From assembly GCF_011758805.1 (NCBI RefSeq), contig NZ_JAANOW010000001.1, positions 1,922,001 through 1,986,000 of the forward strand: a DNA stretch of 64,000 nucleotides. The letters are read 5' to 3'. The notes beneath the pieces were generated by a model. It was not told the origin of the DNA. It saw only the letters and a list, made by a program, of their open reading frames with translations, and made no database searches. The first letter of the stretch is position 1, and every line of letters begins with the position of its first letter. The position numbers and the translations under genes are program-made. Below are positions 26,715 to 57,325 of the stretch, piece by piece. This stretch comes from Mycolicibacterium fluoranthenivorans (GTDB taxonomy: Bacteria > Actinomycetota > Actinomycetes > Mycobacteriales > Mycobacteriaceae).

Positions 26715-27448
26715 TTCTCACCGCTTCCGCGAGGGACCAGAACCGTGCTGACCGATGTCCGGGCCGCGGTGCCGTCGGGTAGCCGGGCCGGAATGTCCAC
26801 GGCGTTGTGCCGTGCGTACACCCCGGGGCTGGGCATCATGGTCGGATACCCGCCCGGGGCGAAACGCTCGATCGCCAGTTCGCGCTGGGTCTTGCGACGG
26901 TCGAACCGTTCCCGGTGTGCCAGCACCATCGCACCCAGGGTGGCGGTGATCAGCAGCGCGCTGGTGAGCTCGAACGCCCAGACGTAGCGGGTGAAGATCA
27001 GTGCGGCCAGGCCCTCGACATTGCCGCCCCGGTTCGCGGCATCGAGCCCCGCGAATCCGTTCACCGCGACATTGCCGATCCCGCCGATCAGCAGCACCCC
27101 GAAGCCGACACCGGCCACGATGGCCGCAACCCGTTGCCCTCGAATGGTTTCCACCAGGGACTCCGAGGTATCAACGCCGATCAGCATGAGCACGAACAGG
27201 AACAGCATCATCACCGCACCGGTGTAGACGACCACCTGGACGATCCCGAGGAACACGGCGTCCTGGGCGATATAGAGCACCGCGAGGTTGATCATCGTGA
27301 TCGCCAGGAACAGTGCCGAGTACACCGCTTTGGTGGCGGCCACCACCCCGATCGCACCGAGGACGGCCAGGGTGCCGACGATCCAGAAGGTGACGGCCTC
27401 GGTGGTCGAGGTTTGTGCCAGGCCCGCGGCGAGTACCGTCGCGGTCAT
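26711..27448 (-). CDS. nuoJ: NADH-quinone oxidoreductase subunit J
   Basis: 245-residue membrane subunit with five hydrophobic helices in the first 170 residues (for example [20 protein letters not shown] with the pi-bulge region) and a hydrophilic C-terminal tail of about 70 residues ([18 protein letters not shown] onward). The long tail is typical of actinobacterial NuoJ. The start at 27448 is set by [10 protein letters not shown]; it overlaps the nuoI stop by 4 nt. Confidence 0.95.
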
Positions 27449-54144: not shown

Positions 54145-54492
54145 ATGTGGGAATTCGCTCTGCTGTTGCTGTTGGTCGGCGCGTTGGTCCTGATCGTCGT
54201 GCCGCGACTGCGCAACCGGCGGGGCACTCCCGGCGATTGGCAGTCCGGCCAGCTGTTGGTGACCGGTCTGAGCCCCCGGCCGGACGCCACCGGTGAACAG
54301 TTCGTCACCATCACCGGCGTGATCAACGGCCCCACGGTGGCCGAGCACGTGGTGTACCAGCAGCTGGCGGTCGACGTCGACCAGTGGCCGACCGTGGGCC
54401 AGTTGATCGCCGTCGTCTACTCGCCGAAGAATCCCGACAACTGGCGATTCGCGCCGTCGCAGGTGCCCGACCACCCGGGCGAGTTGTCCTAG
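54145..54492 (+). CDS. Conserved small membrane-anchored protein
   Basis: 115 residues. One N-terminal transmembrane helix (MWEFALLLLLVGALVLIVVP) followed by RLRNRR on the cytoplasmic side, then a beta-rich domain (GQLLVTGLSPRPDATGEQFV, ITGVINGPTVAEHVVYQQLA, TVGQLIAVVYSPKNPDNWRF) that could be an OB- or SH3-like fold. I do not recognise a named family. The stop shares the CTAG palindrome with the stop of the convergent DUF559 gene. The gene is divergent from hisN. Confidence 0.72.
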   Translation: MWEFALLLLLVGALVLIVVPRLRNRRGTPGDWQSGQLLVTGLSPRPDATGEQFVTITGVINGPTVAEHVVYQQLAVDVDQWPTVGQLIAVVYSPKNPDNWRFAPSQVPDHPGELS

Positions 54493-55436
54493 CCCGCGAG
54501 ATTGCAGTTATCGCCCGAAAGAACGAGTGCACGCCGCAGCAACTGCAATCTCGCGGCGAGCCGGGCCCGTGCCGGATGTGGTGGGCCGAGTTTCCCGTCC
54601 CAACCGCGGGCGAGCAGGGTGCGGTACGTCCGTTCCAGGATCTCCCAGTCGCTGTCCTCTTTGATCACCCGCACGACGTTCCACCCGAGTCGTTCGATCC
54701 GGGGGAGTGTGCGTAGGTCTTTCACGTACTGAAACCGATTGGTGCGGTGTTGATCTCCGTCGTACTCGACGACGACCAGATGCTCCGCCCAGCCCAGGTC
54801 GACGGTGCGCAGCACCCTGCGGCCGTCCAGGATGGGGATCTGGGTGACCGGCCGCGGGAAGCCGGTGTCGAGGAACAACAAGCGCAGGCGGCTTTCCTGA
54901 GGTGAGGCCGCGCCGCCGTCCACAAGGGGCAGTATGGCGCGCAGTTGTTTGAGCCCACGGACGCCGCGATAGCGCTCCGCCAACATGGACACGTCCGCGG
55001 TGTCGAATGCCGTGACGCGCTTGAGTTCATCCATCCGGGCGAGCGCCTCGGTCCGCGGCCGGTATCGTCCCAGGTCGAACGCGGTACGGGCCGGCGTTGT
55101 CACCCGGACGCAATCCTCGACCATCACCTCGTCGGCGCCGAGGCGGTCGCGCCGCACCACGATCCCCGGCGGCGGCCGACTGATGGTCCAGATCATCTCG
55201 ACGTCGATGTCCATATCGATCCAGCGGGCGCCGTGCAGTGCCGACGCGGCGAGGCCGGCGATGACCCCCAGCTTGCGGGAGCGGAGGAAGGCGCCGTCGA
55301 TGCGCTCGTCGAGGGTCAATTCGTGCCCCCTGGGCGCATAGACGTCACGGTGGATGCGGTCGTGGTGGCGGCGCAATTCGTGTGGCGTGACCGAACCGTG
55401 CGCCAGGGCCTGCGTGCCCACGATGAGCTTCCTCAT
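54489..55436 (-). CDS. AbiEi-like antitoxin domain / DUF559 endonuclease-like protein
   Basis: 315 residues. The N-terminal half (LIVGTQALAHGSVTPHELRR, IHRDVYAPRGHELTLDERI, AGLAASALHGARW) looks like the winged-helix domain of type IV AbiEi antitoxins. The C-terminal half has a PD-(D/E)XK/Vsr-like DUF559 pattern: ESRLRLLFLDTGFP, TVDLGWAEHLVVVEYDGDQH and RTLPRIERLGWNVVRVIKED. Start 55436 (MRKLIVGT) is used; the longer frame to 55496 enters the flanking hairpin. The last 20 codons encode RLQLLRR...DNCNLAG across a 16-bp inverted repeat. No toxin gene is adjacent. Related repeats bound the gene on both sides. Confidence 0.8.
   Translation of the reverse strand: MRKLIVGTQALAHGSVTPHELRRHHDRIHRDVYAPRGHELTLDERIDGAFLRSRKLGVIAGLAASALHGARWIDMDIDVEMIWTISRPPPGIVVRRDRLGADEVMVEDCVRVTTPARTAFDLGRYRPRTEALARMDELKRVTAFDTADVSMLAERYRGVRGLKQLRAILPLVDGGAASPQESRLRLLFLDTGFPRPVTQIPILDGRRVLRTVDLGWAEHLVVVEYDGDQHRTNRFQYVKDLRTLPRIERLGWNVVRVIKEDSDWEILERTYRTLLARGWDGKLGPPHPARARLAARLQLLRRALVLSGDNCNLAG
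54494..54556. repeat. Left hairpin of the DUF559 unit
   Basis: Arms CCGCGAGATTGCAGTT (54494-54509) and AACTGCAATCTCGCGG (54541-54556) are perfect over 16 bp with a 31-nt loop containing GTGCAC. They lie within the last codons of the DUF559 gene. Confidence 0.85.
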
Positions 55437-55507
55437 ACCGGGATGTTCACCCCGGGTGCCGACAGATCTCCTCGACATTGCGGTTGTTGTGCACAAGTGC
55501 GAGTGGC

Positions 55508-55534
55508 GTCCGCGATAACGGCAATCTCGCGGAC
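55508..55534. repeat. Right hairpin of the DUF559 unit
   Basis: GTCCGCGA (55508-55515) and TCGCGGAC (55527-55534) form an 8-bp stem with an 11-nt loop. GCAATCTCGCGG at 55521-55532 repeats the core of the left hairpin. GTGCAC lies about 20 nt upstream (55490-55495), as in the left copy read on the minus strand. Confidence 0.8.
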
Positions 55535-55548
55535 GGGCGGGGGATGGC

Positions 55549-55554
55549 TACGCT
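55549..55554 (+). promoter_or_regulatory. Putative -10 element for the PPOX-F420 gene
   Basis: TACGCT ends 7 nt before GTG 55562, which would give a leaderless mRNA and decides that start over ATG 55544, which would lie upstream of the transcript. Confidence 0.45.
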
Positions 55555-55561
55555 GACATTC

Positions 55562-55969
55562 GTGCCCCAGCCGCTGCCCGAAGACCTGCTCGACCTGCTG
55601 CGCAAGCCCAGCCCGTGCTTCGTCGCGACGTTGATGCCGGACGGGTCACCGCAGCTCACCGAGACCTGGGTGCACACCGACGGTGAACATGTCGTCATCA
55701 ACATCGTCGACGGCCACCAGAAGGCGCGGAACATCGCGCGCGACCCGCGTGTGGCGGTGAACATCGCCGATCCCGACGACATCCGCCGGTTCTACGCGGT
55801 CCGTGGTCGGGTCAGCGCCGTCACCACCGAGGGCGGCAGGGAGAGCATCGACGAGATCTCACACAAGTACCTCGGGATCCCGTACCCGAACTTCAGCGGA
55901 AACCCGGACGAGACAAGGCTCATCGTCACCATCGAAGCCGACAAGATCACCCCGCCCATGGGTGGGTGA
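55562..55969 (+). CDS. PPOX class F420-dependent oxidoreductase
   Basis: 135 residues with the split-barrel flavin/F420-binding fold of the pyridoxamine-5'-phosphate-oxidase-like family: LLRKPSPCFVATLMPDGSPQ, ETWVHTDGEHVVINIVDGHQ, KARNIARDPRVAVNIADPDD and RGRVSAVTTEGGRESIDEIS. Close mycobacterial relatives bind F420 and reduce diverse substrates. The GTG 55562 is favoured by a -10 hexamer 7 nt upstream and by homologues starting near PLPEDLLDLL; ATG 55544 would add six residues. It abuts the convergent fprA stop with no gap. Confidence 0.86.
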   Translation: MPQPLPEDLLDLLRKPSPCFVATLMPDGSPQLTETWVHTDGEHVVINIVDGHQKARNIARDPRVAVNIADPDDIRRFYAVRGRVSAVTTEGGRESIDEISHKYLGIPYPNFSGNPDETRLIVTIEADKITPPMGG

Positions 55970-57325
55970 TCAACCGTGCGCGATGCCCAGCATGTCGGCG
56001 ACGCTGACCAGCTTCACCCGGGGCCGGTGCTGGGCCTCGCCGGTGGCGCGCTCGTGCGCGTCGATGCGCTGCCAGTGATCGTCGGTGACGAGCTTGGGTT
56101 GCCGCGACAGCAGCCACTCGACGAGCACCTCGGAATGGTCGGCGGGGAAACCGGGTTCGCCGAGCCCGGCCAGAAGCGTGGCGACGGTATCCGCCGAATC
56201 CTTCTTGTTCGAACCGATCACGCCCGAGGGGCCGCGCTTGATCCAGCCCACCACGTACTCGTTGCGTGAACCCTCGACGCGACCGTCGGTGTGCGGGATG
56301 GTGCCGGAGCGGTCGTCGAACGGCAGTCCGCTCAGCGGCACCCCGCGGTAGCCGACCGCGCGCACCACCAGCTGTACCGGAATCTCCTCGCGCTCCCCGG
56401 TGTCCTTGGCGACCACCCGGCTGCCCTCGTTCACCAGTTCGTTGCGCCCCAACACAATCGACTCGACGCGGCCGTCGCCACGGATCTCGATCGGTGAGGT
56501 GGCGAACTTGAAGACCACCCTGCGCTTGGCTCCCCGCGGGTCCATCTCCGCGTACTCGCGCAGCACCTTCACGTTCTGCTTGACGGCCTTGCCGGCCGCC
56601 TCCAGCTCCTCGTCGGTGATGGCGTCGAAGTCGGCTCGGTCCACCACGATGTCCACCTCGGCCATCTGTTCCAGGTGGCCCAGCTCGCGTAGTTCCAGCG
56701 TCGTGAAGGGGGCCTGCACGGGTCCGCGCCGACCGACCACGATCACCTCCTGCACACCGCGCACACCGAGCGAGTCCAGGGCGTGGTCGGCGATATCGGT
56801 CTGCGCCAGGATCTCGGGATCACTGATCAGGATCCGCGCCACGTCCAGGGCCACATTGCCGTTGCCGATCACCACGGCGCGCTGTGCGTTGAGGTCCGGT
56901 GCGATGCCTTGGAAGTGCGGGTGGGCGTTGTACCAGCCGACGAAGTCGACGGCGGCGACACTGCCGGGCAGGTCCTCACCGGGGATGCCCAGGGCCCGGT
57001 CGGACTGCGCGCCGACGGCGTAGACCACCGCGTCGTAACGCTGCGCCAACTCCGCGGCCTGCACATGCTCACCGACGGTGATGTTGCCGAAGAAACGGAA
57101 CCGCGGGTTCGCCGAAGTCTTCGCGAACTGCGCGCTGATCGACTTGATCTTCGGATGATCGGGCGCCACGCCCGAGCGCACCAGGCCCCACGGCGTGGGG
57201 AGCATCTCCAACATGTCGACGCGAATCTCCCGATCCTGCGACGCATCGGCGGACTTCAACAGCGATGCGGCGGCGAAGAACCCGGAGGGTCCCGAGCCGA
57301 CGATCGCCACGTGGTACGGGCGCAT
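55970..57325 (-). CDS. fprA: Ferredoxin/adrenodoxin-type NADP+ reductase FprA
   Basis: 451-residue flavoprotein that moves electrons between NADPH and ferredoxins or P450s. FAD motif HVAIVGSGPSGFFAAASLL at residues 5-23; LPTPWGLVRSGVAPDHPKIK; NADP motif AVVIGNGNVALDVARILI; C-terminal VVGWIKRGPSGVIGSNKKDS. Length and sequence match M. tuberculosis FprA (Rv3106, 456 aa), divergent from prfB as here. Start at 57325 gives MRPYHVAIVGSG; the open upstream frame is not supported. Confidence 0.94.
   Translation of the reverse strand: MRPYHVAIVGSGPSGFFAAASLLKSADASQDREIRVDMLEMLPTPWGLVRSGVAPDHPKIKSISAQFAKTSANPRFRFFGNITVGEHVQAAELAQRYDAVVYAVGAQSDRALGIPGEDLPGSVAAVDFVGWYNAHPHFQGIAPDLNAQRAVVIGNGNVALDVARILISDPEILAQTDIADHALDSLGVRGVQEVIVVGRRGPVQAPFTTLELRELGHLEQMAEVDIVVDRADFDAITDEELEAAGKAVKQNVKVLREYAEMDPRGAKRRVVFKFATSPIEIRGDGRVESIVLGRNELVNEGSRVVAKDTGEREEIPVQLVVRAVGYRGVPLSGLPFDDRSGTIPHTDGRVEGSRNEYVVGWIKRGPSGVIGSNKKDSADTVATLLAGLGEPGFPADHSEVLVEWLLSRQPKLVTDDHWQRIDAHERATGEAQHRPRVKLVSVADMLGIAHG

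Follow-up and report, generated by a model that had tools for sequence, protein, structure and literature searches.

In the 64,000-nt stretch of the Mycolicibacterium fluoranthenivorans genome analysed here (the window), a single nuclease gene is enclosed by two long palindromes, and the unit so formed is set between a small membrane-protein gene and a gene with a PNPOx domain (Table 1). The stop codon of the nuclease gene overlaps that of the membrane-protein gene, which confirms the CTAG stop that the initial annotation of this DNA had described as common to the unit and its neighbour.

Table 1. The palindrome-flanked unit, its parts and its nearest neighbours in the window
Feature	Position	Strand	Remarks
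Small membrane-protein gene	54145-54492		nearest neighbour
DUF559/MTES_1575-type nuclease gene	54489..55436	minus	315 aa; ATG at 55436; stop TAG 54489-54491
Whole unit, palindrome-gene-palindrome	54494..55532		1,039 bp
Palindrome A, downstream	54494..54556	minus	63 bp; overlaps the gene's last codons; perfect outer stem of 16 bp; minus-strand centre ACTCGTTCTT
Vsr-like PD-(D/E)XK nuclease part	54654..54896	minus	E181, D213, E224, H230
N-terminal AbiEi-like DNA-binding part	55041..55373	minus	residues about 22-132; likely repeat-recognition part (predicted)
Palindrome B, upstream	55470..55532	minus	63 bp; 33-nt gap to the ATG; minus-strand centre ACTCGCACTT; orientation as A
PNPOx-domain gene	55544-55969		other nearest neighbour; Pfam E = 3e-15

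The same annotation had read the gene as an AbiEi-type region joined to a DUF559-type nuclease region, and profile searches bear this out. The PADLOC AbiEi model matches residues 22-132 of the window protein (E = 7.6e-5) and also 60 of 60 relatives, and the Pfam families MTES_1575 (E = 0.0011) and DUF559 (E = 0.0052), both below the Pfam cut-offs, are matched within residues 212-261. Among 56 aligned relatives the MTES_1575 profile is matched by 47 and the DUF559 profile by 21 (E<=0.01), so that by profile the nuclease domain belongs with these families (PF18741 and PF04480); the AbiEi-like N-terminal part is an addition to them, and their one-line descriptions in Pfam name no repeat partner. 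The leading Pfam families among the 56 members are MTES_1575, DUF559 and AbiEi_1, and Transposase_17, the IS200/IS605-like HUH tyrosine transposase, is not among the five families that they match at the same threshold. The four nuclease residues of Table 1 are invariant in an alignment of 60 sequences. MTES_1575 is described as a Vsr-type REase in the relevant passage of one paper (PMC3710099), and a Vsr-like protein of Caulobacter is the topic, as that source presents itself, of another (PMC12907096). Profile matches to PDB sequences (four, E 0.03-0.2) were taken as chance. Because dN/dS is 0.11-0.25 across 12 homologous pairs, some of them non-independent, the protein is, by this measure, kept by selection of the purifying kind.

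The DUF559 family is present in 118 of 118 genomes of the genus sampled, and the window's own genome holds nine genes of it (10 matches, as one gene is matched in two pieces). An own-genome paralogue in two overlapping pieces with a broken frame (L016/L017, G000:C1:1279395-1280226; L and G numbers are our handles for loci and genomes) has kept its palindromes at both ends, and the solo copies L204 and L205 look by eye like this type.

At each end of the window unit, two arms of 23 bp enclose an asymmetric centre of 17 nt, around ACTCGCACTT. The hairpins that the initial annotation had placed at both sides are real, though larger than it described: because each end is a complete 63-bp palindrome, the right end, too, is a hairpin. 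Its 12-mer GCAATCTCGCGG, with GCGATAAC directly before it, is present at both outer ends, and the left stem is indeed a perfect 16 bp (16/16, 54494-54509 with 54541-54556). GTGCAC likewise lies inside both window elements, but it is no feature of the family, in which the centre common to many types is CTACTCGCACTTT. A reading of the ends as transposon-like terminal inverted repeats is not supported, as they are palindromes whose centres, in the family, are more often direct; in the window unit the two asymmetric centres point the same way, so that its ends are in direct orientation.

The 12-mer is exact at 54494 (-), 54545 (+) and 55521 (+). The outer arms (54494-54514 and 55512-55532) are identical at 20 of 21 positions, and the inner arm of the right-hand palindrome (55470-55532) reads CCTCGACATTGC, which differs at two of 12 bases. 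With up to two mismatches allowed, the 12-mer alone shows no enrichment in the window (17 occurrences vs 13.2 expected); in the whole genome the exact 12-mer occurs eight times, as opposed to zero for its reversed control, and seven of the eight fall in five 63-bp palindromes, three of which are away from any DUF559 gene found. Matches at 27013 and 27064, spaced 51 apart as in the element, were rejected as chance, since they lie on the same strand with the rest of the palindrome missing; they sit in a coding frame that by eye resembles an NADH-dehydrogenase subunit. An Rfam search of 54300-55700 gave two matches up to E=1, both under the gathering score and none at the palindromes.

Forty-seven elements align without gaps at 63 columns (outer arm, inner arm, then centre), and 86.3% of the alignment cells are paired, a percentage that is partly by construction because the elements were selected for palindromicity and core match. 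The 47 aligned 63-mers have no conserved columns of a GTAG-type head. A covariance model matches palindromes A (E=2.1e-12) and B (E=3.6e-12), both of which are members of its training set, and it finds elements in 114 of the 118 genus genomes, with up to 45 candidates scored per genome and one palindrome possibly counted on both strands. The genomes G022, G053, G055 and G057 give no model match, yet hold 2-11 DUF559 matches each. In the window's own genome there are at least 12 distinct model elements, 10 of which, among the matches listed, are not beside a DUF559 gene. Such model counts miss some types, because not all centres are alike (L010-L013 and L018, for example, have others); the palindromes vary from one gene lineage to the next, and at the other own-genome family genes repeat finding returned palindromes or matched repeats of other sequence at both ends.

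Two smaller observations concern the make-up of the elements. The upstream palindromes of L259, L260 and L263 carry in or near their centre TTATCCACA, which we take to resemble a DnaA box. On the strand reading ACTCGCACTT, mispairs are biased to G over C (G-G 109, C-C 56; 121 non-redundant elements). An excess of G-T over A-C mispairs (154 vs 97, 121 elements) may be a trace of a folded single strand, but the excess of G-G over C-C has the same strand bias.

Matched repeats around the genes of the family

A locus was scored as bracketed when the best local match of its upstream against its downstream flank exceeded the 99th percentile of shuffles. In a first set, drawn from the window's own genome, from others of the genus and from four whole genomes, 63 of 68 loci were used (five short frames were dropped, own-genome L017 and L018 among them), and matched repeats bracket 52 of these 63, or 50 of 61 without duplicates, the score of L262 being inflated by its IS copies. 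All seven own-genome loci that are long enough pass the threshold. A second set of 80 named Mycobacteriaceae loci was fetched separately; L281 has too little flank, which left 79, and 11 of the 80 repeat loci that are already in the first set (protein identity >=95%). Here 64 of 79 loci are bracketed, as opposed to one of 77 control flanks displaced outward, and without duplicates the figures are 55 of 69 and none of 67. These shuffles and displaced controls were used instead of an earlier wide-flank test, which was blurred by homologous neighbours (5/38 above the cross-locus 99%). On such flank comparisons, bracketing by matched palindromes is the rule in the family, though not universal: the matched pair is missing at 11 of 63 and 15 of 79 loci, which include L290, the second paralogue of a MAG, and the exchanged units L267 and L272.

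Elements of the core type stand on both sides at 56 of 140 loci, upstream only at 21, downstream only at seven and on neither side at 56; without duplicates the corresponding numbers among 127 loci are 46, 20, 6 and 55. Where both sides carry them, the centres are oriented ++ at 32 loci, -- at 11, +- at nine and -+ at four (28, 9, 6 and 3 of 46 without duplicates).

In a phylum sample, relatives at E<=1e-15 occur in 46 of 197 genomes, five of them genus genomes, and 10 of the 24 non-genus loci tested are bracketed by matched repeats, several of which are palindromic. In Tsukamurella both of the loci looked at are bracketed, and the palindromes of the one differ from those of the other. The two lie in PLSDB records (NZ_LR134454 and NZ_LR134464) that are labelled plasmids, and the gene content of these records (e.g. 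purB) looks chromosomal; because they carry such genes, the plasmid matches of the family in Tsukamurella are probably chromosomal.

The initial annotation had offered, as one of two readings, a stand-alone defence gene; we weighed it in the form of a restriction or defence nuclease encoded close to common hairpins. A few members do give weak matches of that kind (PADLOC mREase_II in 3 of 60, NCBIfam ProA in 5 of 60). Nevertheless, the family appears in six of 72,556 plasmid records and one of 50,697 phage records, the window unit holds no partner gene, and the contrast of matched pairs with displaced controls excludes chance hairpins, such that we regard this reading as highly improbable.

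Pairing of gene and repeat

The arms at the two ends of a locus are 80% identical, as opposed to 53% between loci (80 vs 52 without duplicates). The window-type arm was counted in the 118 genomes with a 19-nt arm pattern and one mismatch allowed, a count in which a palindrome may match with both its arms. It is matched 14 times in G089, eight in G113, seven in G030, five in the window's own genome (G000), four in G010, once each in nine others and not at all in 104, and the reversed control of the pattern gives one match in total. G089, G113, G030 and G000 are the only genomes with a homologue of at least 61% (61-65%, or the window protein itself), and it is in these that the arm is matched 5-14 times; the other 114 genomes have at most four matches each. 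The arm is absent from G091 (60%, residues 1-285) and G070 (59%, residues 1-299), and G010 has its four matches although its best homologue is at 54%.

In the four homologue-bearing genomes the gene holds the same neighbours. The 19 solo copies examined, on the other hand, fall at four sites common to two or three species and eight sites seen once in the fetched set (a twentieth stretch, L426, has no palindrome and was left out). Because the gene keeps one neighbourhood while solo copies occupy many sites, the repeats are found at more places than the gene.

Similarity of arms goes with similarity of proteins across the family (Mantel r=0.52 for 84 loci; with duplicates removed, 0.45 for 72 loci, against a permutation maximum of 0.11). 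Given the C-terminal part of the protein, residues 1-75 still correlate with the arms at r=0.42 in both sets (permutation maximum 0.14, and 0.17 without duplicates), and the C-terminal part given the N-terminal one correlates at 0.08 and, without duplicates, 0.03, within the permutation range. By these correlations, the arm sequence tracks the N-terminal AbiEi-like part and not the nuclease part. The Mantel values alone are no proof of recognition, because related genes share both protein and repeat by descent.

Gain, loss and exchange at orthologous sites

The membrane-protein gene is found in 118 of 118 genomes. No DUF559 match lies beside it in the stretches fetched from 29 relatives, some of which end at contig ends, and in 16 of the 29 the gene next to it is the fprA-like one (window frame 55970-57325, presumably an fprA-like enzyme). 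A solo palindrome occupies the window site in three relatives (L053, L063, L074) and, by eye, in L069 also, and the counterpart of the window gene is present in G089, G113 and G030 (L019-L021). The PNPOx gene is on the other side of the unit in G089 and a remnant, by eye, in G113 and G030; with the window, L019-L021, L056 and L068 taken together, it stands on either side of the unit, survives as a remnant (by eye) or occurs without a DUF559 gene, so that this position seems to have a second gene that varies.

Solo palindromes were compared between G095 and G106, two species 91-93% alike. Fifteen of 26 G095 elements have an orthologous element in G106, and of the 17 elements unshared between the two, 12 were tested for empty sites. 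In three cases the site without the element is cleanly empty; where the element is present it stands 5-9 bases beyond a stop codon, and the three alignments reveal no clear target-site duplication. At the L146 site G106 has a palindrome of a different type (L256-type, E=1.8e-15); the L156 and L170 sites are no more than suggestive, with scores of 10.5 and 8.5 where controls reach 10. L182 is a diverged copy; for L168, L178 and L197 one flank was found or the flanks lie on different contigs, and L196, the last of the 12, was assigned to no outcome class. L169/L236, with flanks 1.5 kb apart, had looked like a gene-bearing copy and was rejected, as the insert is a 445-codon frame without a DUF559 match. 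This frame (L236:1037-2374, G106:C13), hydrolase-like by eye, takes the place of a solo palindrome of G095.

Some solo sites are old, being common to species about 80% alike at the DNA level. Among solo palindromes at shared sites, 64 changes are one-sided and six compensatory, where chance predicts 1.5, in 21 orthologous pairs that are partly non-independent, as they come from species triplets; these are 21 of 25 pairs, three of unequal length or partial match and L429/L432 being left out. The arms of such palindromes differ by 9.7% and the centres by 16.2%. This drift, in which pairing is not maintained at the individual site, fits copies that are renewed by spreading, and not sites each kept for a local function, although the arms are the more conserved.

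It bears as well on a reading in which the protein is an autoregulated DNA-binding protein or a toxin-antitoxin relic, the upstream palindrome its operator, the downstream one a terminator and the solo copies its regulon. Such a reading accords with the match of the N-terminal part to AbiEi antitoxin models and with the position of the upstream element, which, among the 77 loci that have a core-type element there, lies 31-33 nt before the start codon in 50 (with duplicates removed, 43 of 66). It accords poorly with palindromes that erode at shared sites and with solo copies that are present in one and absent from the other of two species 91-93% alike. The same sequence on both sides of the gene, the fixed 63-bp length and the invariant nuclease residues also speak against it, as does the lack of a partner gene between the two palindromes of the window unit and of a toxin-family match in the two window neighbours scanned. 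We consider it improbable.

Sites at which the gene itself comes and goes are found as well. At the L259 site the gene, between palindromes, is present in G059, and a single palindrome of its type in G114 and G100. The L270 site again has the gene in G059; there G097 carries a single palindrome of the same type, and G114, G100, G106 and G095 carry one of another type (types by eye at both sites). The L261 site is occupied by the gene in G106 and empty in G095. L254/L255 and L267/L272 have common flanks and different genes and palindromes, and L267 and L272 are without a matched downstream copy. One MAG holds two paralogues of 81.7% protein identity. They resemble each other between the outer edge of the 5' palindrome and the stop codon, with flanks that are unlike, and the second (L290) is without a matched downstream palindrome. 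For the most part, to judge from its flanks, the gene is inherited vertically: among 65 pairs of proteins that are 75-95% identical and have sufficient flank, 58 are at the same site and seven are not, a duplicate-free count that replaces one of 85 same-site and 18 different pairs with duplicate loci included.

That an orthologous site may carry the gene in one relative and a lone palindrome of its type in another would be explained equally well by homing or cassette exchange, in which the nuclease cuts palindromic landing sites, the gene is copied in by homology-directed repair, and single palindromes are empty targets or the scars of a gene lost when its two flanking copies recombine. Different types at the same intergenic site (L254/L255 vs L267/L272; the L270 site; the L146 site) point the same way, and flanking palindromes that are more often direct would make loop-out possible. 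EDxHD nucleases are Vsr-like. Among homing endonucleases of the EDxHD kind, one is described whose target measures nearly 60 bp (PMC3943268). I-Bth0305I, an enzyme of this kind, resembles the present protein in being a single-gene nuclease joined to DNA-binding regions with a very long target. In the present system, by contrast, there is no intron, a complete palindrome stands on each side of the gene, and elsewhere the repeat occurs in multiple copies without a gene. Palindrome-free sites exist, moreover (G095 at the L261 site; the three empty solo sites), so that palindromes also appear or vanish without the gene, and many solo sites of the fetched set are without a gene-bearing counterpart. 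Because of these palindrome-free sites and many gene-free copies we favour spreading of the 63-mer over homing, which we hold to be unlikely as the main account; spreading and homing or exchange may both be true.

Comparison with REP/RAYT and other repeat systems

In the reading we favour, and consider probable, the window unit belongs to a REP-like repeat system whose own enzyme is a PD-(D/E)XK (DUF559/MTES_1575) nuclease in place of a HUH transposase. Several results weigh against this reading: the mostly vertical inheritance of the gene, solo palindromes whose pairing is not maintained and some of which are at old sites, the loci with no matched pair, the lack of a clear target-site duplication at the empty sites aligned, and the deviating arm counts of G091, G070 and G010. 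The initial annotation had proposed looking for co-occurrence of repeat copies with the cognate gene, for repeats at other DUF559 loci and for both empty and occupied sites in close relatives. Because all three were found, its selfish unit with domains acting on their own repeats is the better of its two readings, the action of the protein being what we infer. Bracketing, end-matched types, dispersal, gain and loss, the two site states (gene or single palindrome) and purifying selection are read from the genomes; binding, cutting and repeat spreading by the DUF559 protein are suggested by analogy. The N-terminal domain would bind the arms of its cognate 63-bp palindrome and the nuclease part would cut at the palindrome so bound, the substrate being either an extruded single-strand hairpin or duplex DNA. 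Copying or repair would then place new 63-bp copies elsewhere, and the gene itself would mostly stay at its own site. A wider proposal, to which we give an even chance, is that Actinomycetota have a repeat-spreading system of separate origin from REP/RAYT. In it a Vsr-like PD-(D/E)XK nuclease with an AbiEi-like reader would recognise its own long palindromes and spread them, or be spread by means of them; one genome would contain several gene-repeat pairs, each specific to itself, and different pairs would occupy the same intergenic sites in turn.

The closest parallel is the REP/RAYT system (TnpA-REP, 'REPtrons'), for which the passages drawn on here describe a gene flanked by two REPs, coevolution and cognate abundance (PMC2817692). 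In both systems, by these and further passages (PMC8266576, PMC3733652), the gene is delimited by two palindromes, cognate palindromes are scattered, repeat abundance goes with gene presence (here for the window type), and orthologous genes lie in the same context in different hosts. Protein and repeat coevolve in both, though here shared descent is not separated out. The enzyme, on the other hand, is AbiEi-like plus PD-(D/E)XK here and an HUH tyrosine transposase there, and the repeat measures 63 bp with a 17-nt asymmetric centre, as opposed to 20-40 bp with a GTAG head. Copy numbers are in the tens, compared with the 37-427 perfect copies given for Stenotrophomonas, and the hosts are Actinomycetota where those of the original RAYTs were gammaproteobacteria. 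For TnpA-REP, in-vitro processing of the single-stranded repeat is reported in the same sources, whereas for the present protein cutting is a prediction. Because the HUH transposase and the GTAG head are absent, the present protein is not a RAYT.

What appears to be new is the proposed pairing of REP-like repeats with a dedicated enzyme unrelated to RAYT; in the open-access literature we found no paper that, by its title or the start of its abstract, links DUF559/MTES_1575 genes to palindromic repeats. The repeats themselves may be partly known, because REPs have already been counted in Mycobacterium tuberculosis and stem-loop families listed: a table gives 64 REP sequences in strain CDC1551 (PMC1525189), and the stem-loop families Myt-1, -8 and -9 have been tabulated (PMC2267715). 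Compared by description, these could coincide, wholly or in part, with the repeats studied here, and the source passages give them no link to a gene. What moves REP-like repeats without a HUH transposase has been asked, in the passage concerned, for CGTC REPs (PMC3733652), and if our reading is right, the question becomes testable with an unrelated nuclease. Dispersed mycobacterial palindromes, possibly including the M. tuberculosis REPs, would then gain a dedicated enzyme and the DUF559 family, ubiquitous in the genus sample, a function, and single genomes would offer several natural protein-palindrome pairs for mapping how AbiEi-like domains read DNA.

A last observation concerns L258 and L262, at first taken for one cassette at two places. 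Longer stretches place them at the same site, with two inverted 1.87-kb IS copies in G059 (L276:2439-7033 and L262). The copies, IS110-like by eye and 98.9% identical, abut the outer edges of both palindromes, and IS110-family elements are reported, in a passage of PMC1525189, to target REPs in other bacteria.
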